Shown here in pieces: positions 50,623 to 63,349 of a DNA stretch of 64,000 bases. The stretch covers positions 101,830-165,829 of the forward strand of contig CANMVC010000003.1 in the NCBI GenBank assembly GCA_947501325.1, given 5' to 3'. Position 1 is the stretch's first letter. Every line of letters starts with the position of its first letter. The position numbers and the translations under genes were made by a program. The stretch comes from an uncultured Sphingomonadaceae bacterium. GTDB taxonomy: Bacteria; Pseudomonadota; Alphaproteobacteria; Sphingomonadales; Sphingomonadaceae. The notes below the pieces were generated by a model. The model was given only the letters and a program-made list of their open reading frames with translations. It was not told the DNA's origin and did not search any database.

Positions 50623-51434
50623 GCCAGAAGCAGCTTTCTCAATTCTTCATCATGTTCCAGCGGCGGGGCCTGGCCAAAGAAAATTTCAAAAGCGACGGCT
50701 GCCTGACCGATCAACATTGCCAGACCGTCGATCGTTTCCAGCCCGCGTGCCTTGGCCGCCTTTAACAAGGGGGTTTTGATCGGCACATAGACCAGATCAT
50801 AGACAATCGCGTCCTCGGGCAGATTTGCCAGGTCGATCACCAGATCATCTTGCCCTTTCATCCCGAGCGCGCTGGCATTGACCAGCAACGCAGCCGCCGG
50901 AAGCGCAGACCCATGTTCCAAAGCCTGTCCTTTAAGCCCGAAGCGGGCCAGCAATGCGGACGCCTTGAGCACATTGCGATTAATGATCGTGACAGAACCC
51001 ACATCGATACGGGACAAGGCAAATAACACCGCCTGCGCCGCGCCACCGGCGCCAATGACAATCACATCCTGACCGCTCAACGGCACATCCGCAATCGGCG
51101 CGAAAAATCCGCCAGCATCAGTATTCGTGCCGAAAAGGTCGCCATTTTCGGCCCGTGCAACCGTGTTCATCGCGCCAATGGATGCGCGTACATTTCCGGG
51201 ATCGGACACATGATCCATTATCGCCAATTTATGCGGAATCGTAACGTTACAACCCTGCCAGTCCTGATCCTCGCGGCGCGTGGCGACATAATCGGCCAGC
51301 TCCTCCGGTTTCACGTGGAACATCCGGTAATCAGCCTTGATAGACAGCTTTTCCAGCCAGAATTTATGGATGATCGGCGATTTGCTGTGCGCAATCGGGT
51401 CGCCAATAACCTCCGCATAGGGAATATTCGTCAT
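50619..51434 (-). CDS. aroE: Shikimate dehydrogenase
   Basis: The 271-residue enzyme reduces 3-dehydroshikimate with NADPH. Visible are GDPIAHSKSPIIH, the catalytic C-N-V-T-I-P-H-K, NTDAGGFF, and the nucleotide-binding VIGAGGAAQAVLFAL. Residues 38-43 (MFHVKP) are encoded by a parS-like site (51307-51322), so the DNA here probably has a second function. It overlaps maf by four bases and coaE by four bases. Confidence 0.95.
   Translation of the reverse strand: MTNIPYAEVIGDPIAHSKSPIIHKFWLEKLSIKADYRMFHVKPEELADYVATRREDQDWQGCNVTIPHKLAIMDHVSDPGNVRASIGAMNTVARAENGDLFGTNTDAGGFFAPIADVPLSGQDVIVIGAGGAAQAVLFALSRIDVGSVTIINRNVLKASALLARFGLKGQALEHGSALPAAALLVNASALGMKGQDDLVIDLANLPEDAIVYDLVYVPIKTPLLKAAKARGLETIDGLAMLIGQAAVAFEIFFGQAPPLEHDEELRKLLLA
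51307..51322. other. Candidate parS site inside aroE (asymmetric)
   Basis: GGTTTCACGTGGAACA has the CACGTG core with half-sites GTTTCAC and GTGGAAC. It differs from a hybrid consensus only at the first base (G instead of T). The other three sites in the window are perfect palindromes. It lies about 1.6 kb left of oriC and encodes the MFHVKP segment of aroE. Confidence 0.65.
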
Positions 51435-52048
51435 GACGGCATAACGCCTCTGACCCGCAAATAGTCCAGCAGATGGAGCAATGGTAAGCCCATGATTGTA
51501 AATTGACTCCCTTTAATATCGGAAAAAAGCTGCGCGCCCCGGCCTTCAATCTCGTAGCATCCCACACAATGGCGGATATTGTCCCATTCCGCATCGACAT
51601 AGCTGTCGATAAAAGCATCGCTCAAATTCCGCATGGTCAGCGTCGCTATATCAACATGACGCCAAACCGGTGACCCCTGGTCCGCAATCACCGCCGCGCT
51701 GAAAAGCTTATGCTTCCTGCCGGACAGCAATCGCAAATGAGCCTTGGCATCTTCACGGTCAACCGGCTTGTCGAGCATGGATCCGTCTTCCAGGGCCAGA
51801 ACCTGATCCCCGCCCAGTACCAGCGCCATTCCAATACGCCGAGACAATCGCACCGCTTTCGCTTCAGCCAGCGCGTCAGCCAGATTTCGCGCGGTCACGC
51901 CATCGGCCTGCAGACCTTCTTTTAACGCGTCTTCGTCGACATTGGGCGCGAGCGATTCAATCACGACGCCGGCGGCCTCCAACATCGCCCGCCGCGCCTT
52001 GCTCTTGGAGGCCAGGACGAGCATGGGATCTGGCGAATCATCACGCAT
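51431..52048 (-). CDS. Maf-type nucleotide pyrophosphatase
   Basis: From ATG 52048 the 205-residue product (MRDDSPDPMLVLASKSKARR) has the Maf N-terminal LASKSKARR and catalytic G-G-D-Q-V-L motifs. Maf proteins hydrolyse non-canonical nucleoside triphosphates and inhibit septation when overproduced. The start overlaps the ppsR stop by eight bases; the open frame upstream (to 52123) lies within ppsR and lacks similarity. ATG 52024 is a further option. Confidence 0.9.
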   Translation of the reverse strand: MRDDSPDPMLVLASKSKARRAMLEAAGVVIESLAPNVDEDALKEGLQADGVTARNLADALAEAKAVRLSRRIGMALVLGGDQVLALEDGSMLDKPVDREDAKAHLRLLSGRKHKLFSAAVIADQGSPVWRHVDIATLTMRNLSDAFIDSYVDAEWDNIRHCVGCYEIEGRGAQLFSDIKGSQFTIMGLPLLHLLDYLRVRGVMPS

Positions 52049-52880
52049 CCGCTGCGCCCTTTTCTTTTTCCTTGCTATGCCGCTCATTGTAGAAATTGAT
52101 GATCGCCGCAGCCGATTCCTCAATCGATCGCCGCGTCACATCGATTGTCGGCCAGGCGTTGTCCGCAAACATCCGGCGCGCATATTGAATTTCCGCTTTG
52201 ACCTTCTCTTCATCGACATAGTCGGTTTCCGGTGCCTGATTAAGCGACAATAGCCGGTTCCGCCGCACCTGCACCAAGCGGCTGGCCCCGGCCACCAGTC
52301 CCACAACCAGCGGGTTCTTGAGATGGTAGAGCGCGTCAGGCGGCGGCGATTCCGGCACGATGGGGATGTTGGCGGTCTTGTACCCGCGATTGGCCAAATA
52401 GATGGATGTCGGGGTCTTGGAGGTTCGCGAAACACCGGCCAAAACAATATCCGCCTCTTCCCAGTTTTTCCAACCGATGCCGTCATCATGCGCGATGGTG
52501 AACTGAATCGCCTCGACCCGTTCGAAATAGGCCGCGTCCAATATATGCTGGCGCCCGGGACGCGCTTTTGCTTCCTGTCCGAGCATGTTGGACAGCGCAT
52601 CGGTGACGGTATCGAGCGCCGGCACAACCGGTAGGCCGAGATGGCGACATTCCCGCTCCAGCCGCGCGCGGATATCGCTGTTGACCAATGTGAAAATCAC
52701 AAGGCCGGGATTATCGGCAACTTCAACCAATATCCGGTTCAAATGGGTTTCGGAGCGCACCATCGGCCAGAAATGCTTGATAATTTCAACGCCATCAAAT
52801 TGCGCCAGCGCCGCTTTTGCGATATTCTCCAGCGTCTCGCCGGTGGAGTCCGATAACATATGCAGATGAAGTCTGTTCAT
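52041..52880 (-). CDS. ppsR: Pyruvate, water dikinase regulatory protein (PPSR/DUF299)
   Basis: The 279-residue kinase/phosphorylase begins MNRLHLHMLSDSTGETLENI and has the P-loop A-G-V-S-R-T-S-K-T-P-T. It regulates PEP synthase or pyruvate phosphate dikinase by ADP-dependent phosphorylation. It is the first gene leftward of oriC, exactly as the conserved RP001/CC_0001-type gene in alphaproteobacteria. It has a maf gene overlapping at its end. Confidence 0.92.
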   Translation of the reverse strand: MNRLHLHMLSDSTGETLENIAKAALAQFDGVEIIKHFWPMVRSETHLNRILVEVADNPGLVIFTLVNSDIRARLERECRHLGLPVVPALDTVTDALSNMLGQEAKARPGRQHILDAAYFERVEAIQFTIAHDDGIGWKNWEEADIVLAGVSRTSKTPTSIYLANRGYKTANIPIVPESPPPDALYHLKNPLVVGLVAGASRLVQVRRNRLLSLNQAPETDYVDEEKVKAEIQYARRMFADNAWPTIDVTRRSIEESAAAIINFYNERHSKEKEKGAADA

Positions 52881-53182
52881 GCCCGCAACCCTGTGATTTC
52901 ATTGTGGATAAAGCAAGGGATGAATGCGGGATTTTTAGGCTCCTCTTTTTCATCCCCATCATCCCGATTTCTATCCACAGCCGGTCAAGTTTTGAAACTT
53001 TCATCCACAGATTGTGGATAATGGGGATGAAATTTGGGAATCGGTAAATTTTTCGTTAACAGCCATCTGTCAATCTGTTTGTAATCGCGGTAGACGCTCT
53101 TTAACTCTCTTATCCACGCTCTATCATCACCAACAAGATTCTTTAAATATACTATATTATTATATTGGGTGACCCTTATCCT
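52881..53182. other. Putative chromosomal replication origin oriC
   Basis: The gap between ppsR and hemE holds perfect DnaA boxes on the minus strand at 52903-52911 and 53013-53021 (TGTGGATAA), and one-mismatch boxes at 52971-52979 (CTATCCACA), 53001-53009 (TCATCCACA) and 53110-53118 (TTATCCACG). The 53001 and 53013 boxes form an inverted pair. TTCATCCCCAT (52949-52959) and ATGGGGATGAA (53021-53031) form a long inverted repeat around the central boxes. GANTC sites for a CcrM-like methylase are at 53038-53042 and 53137-53141. The hemE-adjacent location is conserved for alphaproteobacterial origins, and genes on both sides point outward. Confidence 0.85.
53137..53168. other. AT-rich tract, possible DNA-unwinding element
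   Basis: The 32-base stretch from GATTC through TTTAAATATACTATATTATT to the next TATATTG is about 85-90 % A+T. It sits at the hemE side of the DnaA boxes, the usual place for the duplex-unwinding element. Confidence 0.6.
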
Positions 53183-54217
53183 ATGCCTGACGCGACCGAC
53201 TCCCCGAAAATTTTGCTCGAAACCTTGCATGGCAGGAAAACCGCCCAGACTCCCGTCTGGCTGATGCGCCAAGCGGGCCGCTATTTGCCGGAATATCGCG
53301 AATTACGTGCGAAAAAAGGCGGCTTTCTGGAACTTTGCTATGACGCAGAGGCTGCGGCTGAAGTCACGGTGCAACCGATAAAGCGTTTTGGTTTTGACGG
53401 GGCCATCCTGTTTTCCGACATTTTGATCGTGCCGCATGGCATGGGTCAGAAACTCTGGTTTGAGACGGGAGAAGGACCCCGCCTGTCACCAAGACTCGTC
53501 GATGCGGCTTTGTCGTCTCTAGAGGCGGCTCCCGAGCATTTTGAGGCTATTTACGATACGGTGCGCCATGTTGCTGCGCAGCTGGATGACAAAACGACCT
53601 TCATGGGCTTTGCCGGAAGCCCCTGGACCATCGCCACCTATATGACCCATGGGCAAGGCAGCAAGGATCAGTCTGTCACGCGCCGCTATGCCTATCGGGA
53701 CGAAGCGGCTTTTGCAGAGCTGATCAGCGCGATTATCGACAATACCGTGACCTATCTGCTCGGTCAGATTGATGCGGGCGTGGACGCGGTGCAGCTATTT
53801 GACAGCTGGGCAGGGACCCTGTCACCTACGCAATTTGAAAAATGGGTGATTGCGCCCAATACGGAAATCATAGCGCGGGTAAAGGCTGTTCATCCCGATC
53901 TGCCGATTATCGGTTTTCCCAAAGGCGCTGGCGCGAAATTAATTGCCTATGCCAAAGAAACGGGCGCGGATGCCATCGGTCTGGATGAAACGGTCGATCC
54001 GGTCTGGGCGCATGAAAACCTGCCCCTGGACCTCCCGTTGCAAGGCAATCTTGATCCGCTGGCCCTGATTGCCGGCGGAGATGCGCTGGAAAAATCGGTG
54101 CGCCATATTTTGCAAGTCTTTGAGGATCGCCCGCATATTTTCAATCTGGGCCACGGGATTTTGCCCGATACACCCATTGAACATGTCGAAAAGCTGCTTA
54201 CACTTGTCCGGCAATGA
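53183..54217 (+). CDS. hemE: Uroporphyrinogen decarboxylase
   Basis: The 344-residue enzyme (from ATG 53183, MPDATDSPKILLETL) has the substrate-binding R-Q-A-G-R-Y-L-P-E-Y-R motif and FSDILIVP. It removes four carboxyl groups from uroporphyrinogen III in haem synthesis. GTG 53165 would add six residues; ATG 53183 is preferred. Its stop overlaps the hemJ start (ATGA). It is the first gene on the right side of oriC. Confidence 0.96.
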   Translation: MPDATDSPKILLETLHGRKTAQTPVWLMRQAGRYLPEYRELRAKKGGFLELCYDAEAAAEVTVQPIKRFGFDGAILFSDILIVPHGMGQKLWFETGEGPRLSPRLVDAALSSLEAAPEHFEAIYDTVRHVAAQLDDKTTFMGFAGSPWTIATYMTHGQGSKDQSVTRRYAYRDEAAFAELISAIIDNTVTYLLGQIDAGVDAVQLFDSWAGTLSPTQFEKWVIAPNTEIIARVKAVHPDLPIIGFPKGAGAKLIAYAKETGADAIGLDETVDPVWAHENLPLDLPLQGNLDPLALIAGGDALEKSVRHILQVFEDRPHIFNLGHGILPDTPIEHVEKLLTLVRQ

Positions 54218-59945: not shown

Positions 59946-59963
59946 CTGTTCCACGTGGAACAG
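59946..59963. other. parS: parS site in the mnmE-mnmG gap
   Basis: CTGTTCCACGTGGAACAG is a perfect 18-base palindrome and contains the ParB-box core TGTTCCACGTGGAACA. It is the only one of the sites outside coding sequence, just after mnmE. Confidence 0.85.
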
Positions 59964-61906: not shown

Positions 61907-62524
61907 ATGACAGAACAAGAGGCGCAGGACTGGCTGCGCGAAAAATTCGATGTTTCACGTGAAACATGGGAGCGGCTGGAGCAATTTCTCGCCCTTCTTT
62001 CTGAAGAAATGCAGCATCAGAATCTGATCTCCAAATCAAGCGCCGACCATGTCTGGGCCCGACATGTTGTCGATAGCGCGCAATTATTGCTACATGCGCC
62101 AAAAGGGCAGGGCCGCAAAATCTGGATGGATCTGGGGACCGGCGCCGGCTTCCCCGGGATCATTATCGCAATATTGAGTGACTATGACGTGCAGATGGTG
62201 GAGTCGCGATCTCGCCGGATAGCCTTTCTGGAATCTGTCGTAACAAAGCTGGATCTGATCGAAAAAGCCTTGGTATTGGGCGACCGTTTGGAGAAGGTTG
62301 AAAGCCATCCTGTGGACGTCATTAGTGCAAGAGCTTTTGCGCCATTGCAAAAACTGTTGTCACTTTCACACCGGTTTTCCACAGAAAAAACGGTTTGGCT
62401 CTTACCTAAAGGCAAAAATGCGGTAAGGGAGTTAAAAGGCCTATCGCCAAAACGGCAAAAAATGTTCCACGTGGAACAAAGTTTGACCGACCCGGAAGCG
62501 GGAATATTGGTGGGAATAGGCTGA
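61907..62524 (+). CDS. rsmG: 16S rRNA (guanine-527-N7)-methyltransferase
   Basis: From ATG 61907 the 205-residue enzyme (MTEQEAQDWLREKFDVSRETW) has the SAM-binding D-L-G-T-G-A-G-F-P-G-I motif and VISARAFAPLQKLL. It methylates G527 of 16S rRNA. The coding sequence contains two parS palindromes: residues FDVSRET at 61950 and MFHVEQ at 62463 are read from them. An upstream ATG at 61862 lies within mnmG and gives a non-conserved extension. Confidence 0.95.
   Translation: MTEQEAQDWLREKFDVSRETWERLEQFLALLSEEMQHQNLISKSSADHVWARHVVDSAQLLLHAPKGQGRKIWMDLGTGAGFPGIIIAILSDYDVQMVESRSRRIAFLESVVTKLDLIEKALVLGDRLEKVESHPVDVISARAFAPLQKLLSLSHRFSTEKTVWLLPKGKNAVRELKGLSPKRQKMFHVEQSLTDPEAGILVGIG
61950..61967. other. 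parS: parS site within the 5' part of rsmG
   Basis: ATGTTTCACGTGAAACAT is a perfect 18-base palindrome and contains the classic parS core TGTTTCACGTGAAACA. It encodes part of the FDVSRETW sequence, which is conserved in RsmG of many bacteria. Confidence 0.9.
62463..62478. other. parS: parS site within the 3' part of rsmG
   Basis: TGTTCCACGTGGAACA is a perfect 16-base palindrome, same core as the site at 59946. It encodes MFHVEQ close to the RsmG C-terminus, 104 bases upstream of the parA start. Confidence 0.9.
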
Positions 62525-62566: not shown

Positions 62567-63349
62567 ATGGTCCGGATAGCGATAGCAAATCAAAAAGGCG
62601 GCGTCGGTAAAACGACCACAGCCATTAATATGGCGACGGCTCTTGCTGCAAGCGGCTGGAAAGTATTGTTGATCGATCTCGATCCGCAAGGGAACGCATC
62701 CACCGGGCTTGGTTTGAATCAGGCAGAACGCACGCATAGCAGCTATGACCTGCTGATTTCGGACACCCCCCTGGCTGAATGCGTTATCAGTACCCGTGTG
62801 CCTGGCCTTGATATCGTACCGGCTGTCGTTGATCTTTCCGGCGCGGAAGTGGAACTGGTCGAGTTTGAAGAGCGCACCCATCGGCTGAAAAAAGCCTTGG
62901 ATGCAGGTGACGACGGACAGTGGGACATCTGTTTGATCGATTGCCCGCCATCGCTTGGATTGTTGACACTCAATGCGATGGTCGCTGTAGAATCGCTTCT
63001 GGTGCCGCTGCAGTGCGAGTTTTTTGCGCTCGAAGGTCTCAGCCAGCTGTTGCAGACGGTGGAACGCATCAGAGCGCGTTTCAATCGGGCCTTGTCCGTT
63101 ATGGGTGTGGTGCTCACCATGTATGATCGCCGGAACAAGTTGACCGAGCAGGTGTCCGACGATGTTCGCGCCTGTCTGGGAAATGTCGTATTTGATACAG
63201 TAATTCCCAGAAACGTGCGGCTTTCAGAAGCACCAAGTCACGGTTTACCCGCCCTGATTTACGATCATCGATGCAGTGGGTCAGAGGCTTATATCAATTT
63301 GGCGCGGGAATTAATCTCTCGGCTGCCAGAACGGAAGGTTGCTGCATGA
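62567..63349 (+). CDS. parA: Chromosome-partitioning ATPase ParA
   Basis: The 260-residue protein has the deviant Walker A K-G-G-V-G-K-T-T (residues 10-17), VLLIDLDPQGN, and DICLIDCPPSLG (Walker B). It forms an ATP-dependent gradient on the nucleoid that moves ParB-bound origins to the poles. Start ATG 62567 follows an AAGGG-type stretch. Its stop overlaps the parB start. Two parS sites lie in rsmG just upstream. Confidence 0.96.
   Translation: MVRIAIANQKGGVGKTTTAINMATALAASGWKVLLIDLDPQGNASTGLGLNQAERTHSSYDLLISDTPLAECVISTRVPGLDIVPAVVDLSGAEVELVEFEERTHRLKKALDAGDDGQWDICLIDCPPSLGLLTLNAMVAVESLLVPLQCEFFALEGLSQLLQTVERIRARFNRALSVMGVVLTMYDRRNKLTEQVSDDVRACLGNVVFDTVIPRNVRLSEAPSHGLPALIYDHRCSGSEAYINLARELISRLPERKVAA

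Follow-up and report, generated by a model that had tools for sequence, protein, structure and literature searches.

The 302-base gap between a ppsR-type gene and hemE (positions 52881-53182 of the window, i.e., of the whole 64-kb stretch of DNA that we analysed) is, judging by its sequence, almost certainly the chromosomal origin of replication (oriC) of this bacterium, a sphingomonad related to Sphingorhabdus and Parasphingorhabdus. The observations behind this reading are the sequence parts of the gap, their conservation in relatives, a minimum of cumulative GC skew, a cluster of parS sites and the gene order. The two border genes diverge from the gap: the ppsR-type kinase/pyrophosphorylase gene (PF03618, Pfam E 9.8e-93), which we take to be the COG1806 gene, lies to the left at 52041-52880 on the minus strand, while hemE, encoding uroporphyrinogen decarboxylase (PF01208, Pfam E 8.1e-114), lies to the right at 53183-54214 on the plus strand. 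As hemE starts at 53183, the boundaries of the gap are exactly 52881 and 53182, and the placement of the feature between ppsR and hemE by the first-pass annotation was upheld by both profile matches. Further to the right, profiles matched rho, mnmE, mnmG and rsmG, which are followed by a parA-like gene (62567-63349, plus strand) and a parB-like gene leaving the window, both named from the translations of their reading frames. The genome is a 3.58-Mb draft of 18 contigs; the contig carrying the window has 207,388 bases, and dnaA sits on a separate contig (G000:C1:982139).

Two perfect and three one-mismatch DnaA boxes had been annotated in the 302 bases (60% A+T over the entire gap), and all were found: box A (perfect, 52903-52911, minus strand), box D (one mismatch, 52971-52979, plus strand), box E (one mismatch, 53001-53009, plus strand), box F (perfect, 53013-53021, minus strand) and box H (one mismatch, 53110-53118, plus strand), the last adjoining the likely unwinding region. 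Sites with at most one mismatch numbered 23 in the window versus 9.9 expected from the shuffled window; scaled from the shuffles, ~0.05 such boxes are expected per 302 bases, versus five in the gap. The perfect box TTATCCACA has 25 copies in the draft genome, among which only the pair in the gap is less than 1 kb apart. Boxes E and F form the left and right halves of an inverted pair, head to head and three bases apart (ATCCACA-3-TGTGGAT; 53001 on the plus and 53013 on the minus strand), just as annotated. This pair, ATCCACANNNTGTGGAT, is present once in the draft genome, at the gap. Its exact form was found in 14 of 296 genomes of the order (own genome included), at one place in each, and in 12 of these 14 it lies between ppsR and hemE, the two cases outside the gap being loci L086 and L087; with so few exact carriers, the perfect pair was rejected as a general sphingomonad signature.

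Conservation was assessed in relatives. Gap-like DNA was present in 29 of the 60 genomes searched, namely in 29 of 32 from the genus (own genome included) and in none of 28 outside it. From 73 hemE loci, 68 ppsR-hemE gaps (50 distinct) were obtained, as L042 (gap longer than 700 bases) and L043-L046 (without ppsR) yielded none; 11 family gaps were added via the inverted pair and the distant L036-L040 were left out, so that the family alignment comprised 56 gaps (30 from the genus and 26 from other Sphingomonadaceae). Gap length is 300-302 bases in 28 of the 30 genus gaps and 272-371 bases in the 26 others. Allowing one mismatch and two bases of play, slot D was occupied in 23/30 genus gaps, 13/26 others and 9 of the 15 others not selected by the inverted pair, and slot A in 15/30, 20/26 and 13/15 respectively (with up to two mismatches, in 30/30 and 22/26). 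The values for slot E (16/30 and 17/26) and slot F (30/30 and 22/26) are inflated outside the genus, since 11 of the 26 gaps had been chosen for carrying the E/F pair, and among the 15 gaps that were not fetched in this way they were 10 and 11 respectively. Under the same rules, 489 control positions averaged 0.08 occupied gaps out of 26, with a maximum of five; thus the alignment with other sphingomonads that the first-pass annotation had proposed as a check showed slots A, D, E and F to be kept far above the controls. The other slots fared differently: box H was kept with up to two mismatches in 25/30 genus gaps and 3/26 others (with at most one mismatch, in only 2/30 genus gaps), being poorly conserved outside the genus, and slot C (52927-52935, minus strand), decayed in the window with five mismatches, holds a box with at most one mismatch in 11/30 genus gaps and 4/26 others.

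The annotated 11-base inverted repeat was also recovered, with arms at 52949-52959 (plus strand) and 53021-53031 (minus strand). Read by its letters, it consists of a pair of weak DnaA-like sites facing opposite ways, TCATCCCCA in the left arm and 53022-53030 in the right, each with two mismatches. Both are poorly retained at up to two mismatches (left arm, 9/30 genus gaps and 2/26 others; right arm, 9/30 and 11/26), which leaves their role uncertain. The symmetric layout that had been claimed for the boxes held in part: symmetry is limited to the inverted pair at the centre and to the two weak sites of the repeat. Immediately after box A, 11 bases that are not a DnaA box (AGCAAGGGATG, 52912-52922) hardly vary within the genus and are conserved in part across the family, and possibly make a further protein contact.

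A skew minimum at the gap had been predicted, and the cumulative GC skew of the 207-kb contig reached its minimum at 53254, inside hemE and 72 bases past the gap; the same contig also shows later falls in cumulative skew. In G031, a genus relative with a one-contig genome of 3.78 Mb whose gap is 94% identical to that in the window, the minimum over 275 contiguous kb was at 2263816, 96 bases to the hemE side of the homologous gap (2263912-2264211). Skew around this chromosome was followed in twenty sampled blocks: six blocks from 1.14 to 2.09 Mb were all negative and 11 of 12 from 2.225 Mb round to 0.57 Mb were positive, while those at 0.76 Mb (negative) and 0.95 Mb (positive) disagreed in sign; close to the origin, block 2225001 just to its left was positive, against expectation, and block 2285001 just to its right was near zero. 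This coarse sampling broadly agrees with the placement of the origin. A search of the whole draft genome with what we take to be the parS consensus (up to two mismatches) returned four sites, all within 11.2 kb around the gap: at 51307-51322 (two mismatches, inside an aroE-type gene), 59947-59962 (two mismatches, just after mnmE), 61951-61966 (perfect, inside rsmG) and 62463-62478 (two mismatches, inside rsmG). The reversed pattern, used as control, gave counts of 2 and 2 versus 4 and 4. The sites flank the origin on both sides, and three of the four lie inside coding genes (aroE-type once, rsmG twice).

Could the gap merely hold divergent promoters for ppsR and hemE, along with DnaA-regulated boxes, and the origin lie elsewhere? 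Both genes do diverge from it, and at the loci of relatives such as L023 a TTGGCA, with TAAACC 17 bases further on, is readable as a weak hemE promoter. Yet skew minima in two genomes, the parS cluster around the gap, the conserved gap length and box spacing and a genome without any other close pair of perfect boxes all speak against a promoter-only role, which we regard as very improbable. An origin at dnaA, a common arrangement outside alphaproteobacteria, was considered as well; here, no perfect box lies within 100 kb of dnaA, the nearest ones on its contig being over 100 kb away, and we rejected this location as scarcely credible.

The gap also carries candidate cell-cycle sites. Both GANTC sites that had been annotated were found, at 53038 and 53137. 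The first (53038-53042), a CcrM-type methylation site, has counterparts in 30/30 genus gaps (29 GAATC, 1 GACTC) and 16/26 other family gaps (5 GAATC, 11 GACTC), i.e., in 46/56 overall, and in 7/15 of the unselected others; judged by this alignment, it is fixed within the genus, whereas across the family it is frequent but falls short of fixation. In 15/30 genus gaps, window included, the second is matched by a site at gap position 255-272. GcrA is encoded in the own genome, as is a RAMA-domain (CcrM-type) protein, which among 14 control genomes was found only in Caulobacter. The gap in the window holds no strict CtrA site (TTAA-N7-TTAA); it has a loose CtrA-type site, TTAA-N7-TTTA, at 53045-53059 (minus strand), to which a strict site at gap position 166 in 8/30 genus gaps corresponds. 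Since the origin of E. ruminantium was predicted without CtrA sites (PMC1914354), the absence of a strict site does not by itself exclude a gap from the hemE-type origins. The IHF pattern WATCAN5WTR has a single match, at 52886 (minus strand), a candidate IHF site.

The best-kept element outside the genus is CTGTTTGTAA at 53075-53084 (plus strand; consensus CTGTTKGYAA or CTGTTKGYAT). Its 9-mer CTGTTGGCA, which begins at 53075 and reads CTGTTTGTA in the window, has the highest conservation of any 9-mer across the 26 gaps from other family members (0.98, versus 0.91 for the best DnaA-box stretch) and likewise across the 15 unselected ones (0.99 versus 0.93). CTGTTKGYAA/T occurs exactly at -125 to -80 from hemE in 29/30 genus gaps and 23/31 other family gaps, while in five of these 31 the best match has 3 to 5 mismatches; together with a downstream TWAMC, it has one copy in the own genome. 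Several identities were tried for it: i) as a class-wide element it was rejected, for at least two mismatches were present between -125 and -80 in all 23 order gaps (L190 being kept in this count) and all 31 class gaps outside the family; ii) as an IHF site it was rejected as the main reading, TCAA being lost in L026, L030, L031 and L035 while CTGTTGGCAA is retained; iii) as a sigma-70 -35 box it is weak, the genus having TTTGTA at that spot. The element may be part of a promoter or a site for an origin factor, and it points to a further origin- or promoter-binding factor in sphingomonads.

Next to hemE, box H is followed after a 6-base spacer by four C-first triplets, CAT CAC CAA CAA (53125-53136, plus strand; 3'-GTA GTG GTT GTT-5' on the bottom strand), a box-plus-triplets arrangement seen in seven of eight genus representatives, window included, and then by an AT-rich tract, the likely unwinding element (53137-53166), whose 90% A+T bears out the AT-rich end annotated beside hemE. 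The spacer falls within the 16-base criterion of the basal unwinding system. A layout of box, C-first triplets and AT-rich DNA recurs in many gaps of the class. It was counted as a box (up to two mismatches) followed within 16 bases by at least three C[ACT][ACT] triplets, a pattern that itself fixes C first and bars G, in four sets, drawn from the genus (8 of its 30 gaps), the rest of the family (26 gaps), other families of the order (22 gaps) and the class (31 gaps). The order set derived from 30 loci, eight of which were removed: three lacked ppsR, four belonged to the same family and L190 repeated L191. For the class set, 87 of 115 genomes had a hemE match; among the 47 best scorers after the own genome, upstream DNA was taken from 40, the remaining seven having been passed over manually, and L133 (same family) and eight loci lacking ppsR were then removed.

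In the forward versus the reverse direction, the arrangement was found in 7 versus 0 genus gaps, 4 versus 9 other family gaps, 15 versus 3 order gaps and 23 versus 3 class gaps, while shuffles gave 0.3, 0.5, 0.8 and 1.3 respectively. Requiring at least four triplets, the forward/reverse counts became 7/0, 2/0, 11/0 and 15/1. Matches located more than 270 bases from hemE, remote from the AT-rich end, made up 3 of 23 in the class and 1 of 15 in the order. The middle base of the triplets on the top strand is adenine, i.e., thymine on the reading strand, in all 28 triplets of the seven genus gaps; elsewhere it varies (A 11, T 3 and C 3 in the family; A 29, T 22 and C 16 in the order; A 34, T 28 and C 48 in the class). 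An autocorrelation test that is independent of the choice of pattern was applied to the hemE-proximal 100 bases: in the 53 gaps outside the family, cytosine had z of 9.3, 6.9 and 10.6 at lags 3, 6 and 9, versus -0.3, 0.3 and 2.7 in the upstream control, and at lag 3 the other bases reached 6.5 (adenine), 3.9 (guanine) and 2.4 (thymine). The 26 family gaps gave 5.5 for cytosine and 6.2 for guanine at lag 3. For the genus (eight gaps), the lag-3 value of cytosine was 5.7 in the upstream control versus 3.2 near hemE, and with its control itself periodic a period of three cannot be claimed from the genus alone.

Two other features of this strip were tried and rejected. The first was a periodic signal of strict trios (read as NTN along the top strand), whose longest runs exceeded shuffles in the 26 family gaps but in none of the other three sets; at least three NTN after a box occurred in 5/8 genus, 8/26 family, 13/22 order and 9/31 class gaps versus 1.5, 2.1, 5.4 and 3.3 in shuffles. 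A hairpin across the AT-rich tract was likewise set aside, as the best inverted repeat exceeded shuffles by little (6.68 versus 6.11 in shuffles, sd 0.12, in the 53 gaps outside the family; 6.21 versus 5.92, sd 0.13, in the 26 family gaps; 6.06 versus 5.98, sd 0.21, in the eight genus gaps). At L185, L184 and L187, which belong to other members of the order, the AT-rich tract is seemingly flanked by mirrored triplets (CTA on the left, TAG on the right), as if trios were on both strands.

These parts suggest how the origin might work. We infer that replication starts at the gap, where the strong boxes (A, D, E, F) would be bound by DnaA, as would probably the weaker sites between them, with the head-to-head pair E/F as the centre of the array. 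From box H at 53110, a DnaA filament would extend along the C-first triplets, on their bottom strand, and in this direction open the AT-rich tract at 53137-53166. The GANTC site and the CtrA-type slot, located between the array and the unwinding region, could tie firing to the cell cycle through methylation or CtrA.

As to the mechanism alone, a rival with a probability somewhat short of even holds that the triplets belong to the hemE promoter or leader, or are the low-complexity edge of the AT-tract, and that unwinding is E. coli-like, the T-rich single strand being held by the box array. The orientation in the 26 other family gaps, where the reverse arrangement outnumbers the forward one, counts against the triplet reading and so for this rival. 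It is also favoured by three kinds of control: G-first runs exceed shuffles, more weakly, in three of the four sets; NAN runs on the top strand do so for the genus and the order, and almost do so for the class; and the upstream control of the genus is periodic for cytosine. What opposes it is the cytosine period of three near hemE in the 53 gaps outside the family compared with the upstream control, the frequency of box plus triplets in the order and class sets relative to shuffles, and the near-exclusive forward orientation of runs of at least four triplets in every set. Its remaining support comes from the trio rule itself. At least three NAN trios near a box were reported in 1755 of 2070 origins surveyed (PMC8287927), whereas at least three consecutive 3'-NAN-5' trios were absent from the window, the longest run being two at every box with up to two mismatches; by the published rule of at least three, the window is thus a non-member.

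The loading of DnaA onto the triplets can be set against the reading pocket of the protein. The DnaA of B. subtilis moves on from boxes to triplets of the form 3'-GAT-5', the guanine being held by Arg202 and Glu228 and the middle adenine by Asn187, and a middle thymine slows strand separation and makes colonies grow more slowly than cytosine does (PMC10721633). We took chain 8btg_A as B. subtilis DnaA on the strength of its residues at 187, 190, 193, 202 and 228 (N, I, I, R and E). Aligned to it, the DnaA of the own genome has Ile231 at Asn187, Lys246 at Arg202 and Glu272 at Glu228 (positions counted by hand). DnaA was also read in 30 other alphaproteobacteria, hand-picked from the class and order sets plus three genus members. 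These proteins carry, where B. subtilis has Asn187, Tyr in 17 cases, Phe in seven, Ile in four, Leu in one and Asn in one, and the guanine-reading positions are Lys and Glu in 30/30. The one DnaA with Asn belongs to L206 (G032), where two of the three triplets (CTT CTT CAA) show the canonical adenine as the middle base of the reading strand. Relaxation of the middle base in the triplets would match the loss of Asn187 (29/30) with Lys and Glu kept (30/30); on the other hand, class DnaAs with Tyr also use CTA triplets, so that pocket and triplet are not coupled genome by genome. We offer only as a speculative and rather unlikely proposal that alphaproteobacterial origins are a variant of basal unwinding in which DnaA would read just the first base (the 3'-guanine), code and pocket having drifted together. 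The trio model implies one code for bacteria; alphaproteobacteria seem to retain its guanine and relax its middle adenine, and with nearly all DnaAs examined lacking the adenine-reading residue, specificity in origin opening becomes a question of two partners.

Compared with the basal unwinding system of B. subtilis (PMC8287927, PMC10721633), the strip beside hemE is alike in its order of a box, a short spacer, a period-three strip and then AT-rich DNA, and in having guanine first on the 3'-to-5' strand. Unlike the B. subtilis trios, its middle base is thymine and not adenine, in the four triplets of the window as in the 28 of the genus, and the DnaA of the genome has isoleucine in place of Asn187. 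The putative unwinding stretch looks slightly unlike that of the textbook origin.

As a whole, the origin is of a known kind. The rule that hemE and COG1806 border the origin stems from Caulobacter and Rickettsia, according to PMC1914354, and the match to a hemE-adjacent alphaproteobacterial origin proposed for the window agrees with its gene order, box array and parS cluster and with the published predictions for the family: oriC has been placed by hemE in Sphingopyxis granuli and is predicted there (DoriC) for most Sphingomonadaceae (PMC4741004). The gap has what marks hemE-type oriCs, i.e., the hemE/COG1806 location, a box cluster above chance, a skew minimum, an AT-rich region and parS/parAB nearby. 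With Caulobacter Cori, Rickettsia and the Wolbachia predictions it shares the neighbour hemE, with the first two also COG1806, and with hemE-type origins in general several DnaA boxes, an AT-rich region and a candidate IHF-type match; parS is close by as in Caulobacter, where it is about 8 kb away (PMC1914354, PMC6399470). Unlike Cori, which exceeds 400 bases and has five CtrA sites, the gap is shorter (302 bases) and without a strict CtrA site (PMC1914354, PMC6399470). For S. granuli TFA and other Sphingomonadaceae, the hemE location, gene cluster, boxes and a putative unwinding element had already been reported (PMC4741004), while CTGTTKGYAA, GANTC and the triplets go unmentioned in the excerpted text of that paper and may be visible in its supplementary alignment. 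Such an origin is nothing unusual within its class and is in line with the published predictions, to which the present analysis adds the weak-site repeat, the conservation of GANTC, CTGTTKGYAA and a hemE-side strip with a weak box, triplets and an AT-rich tract; it is this strip, together with the DnaA pocket, that deserves a second look.
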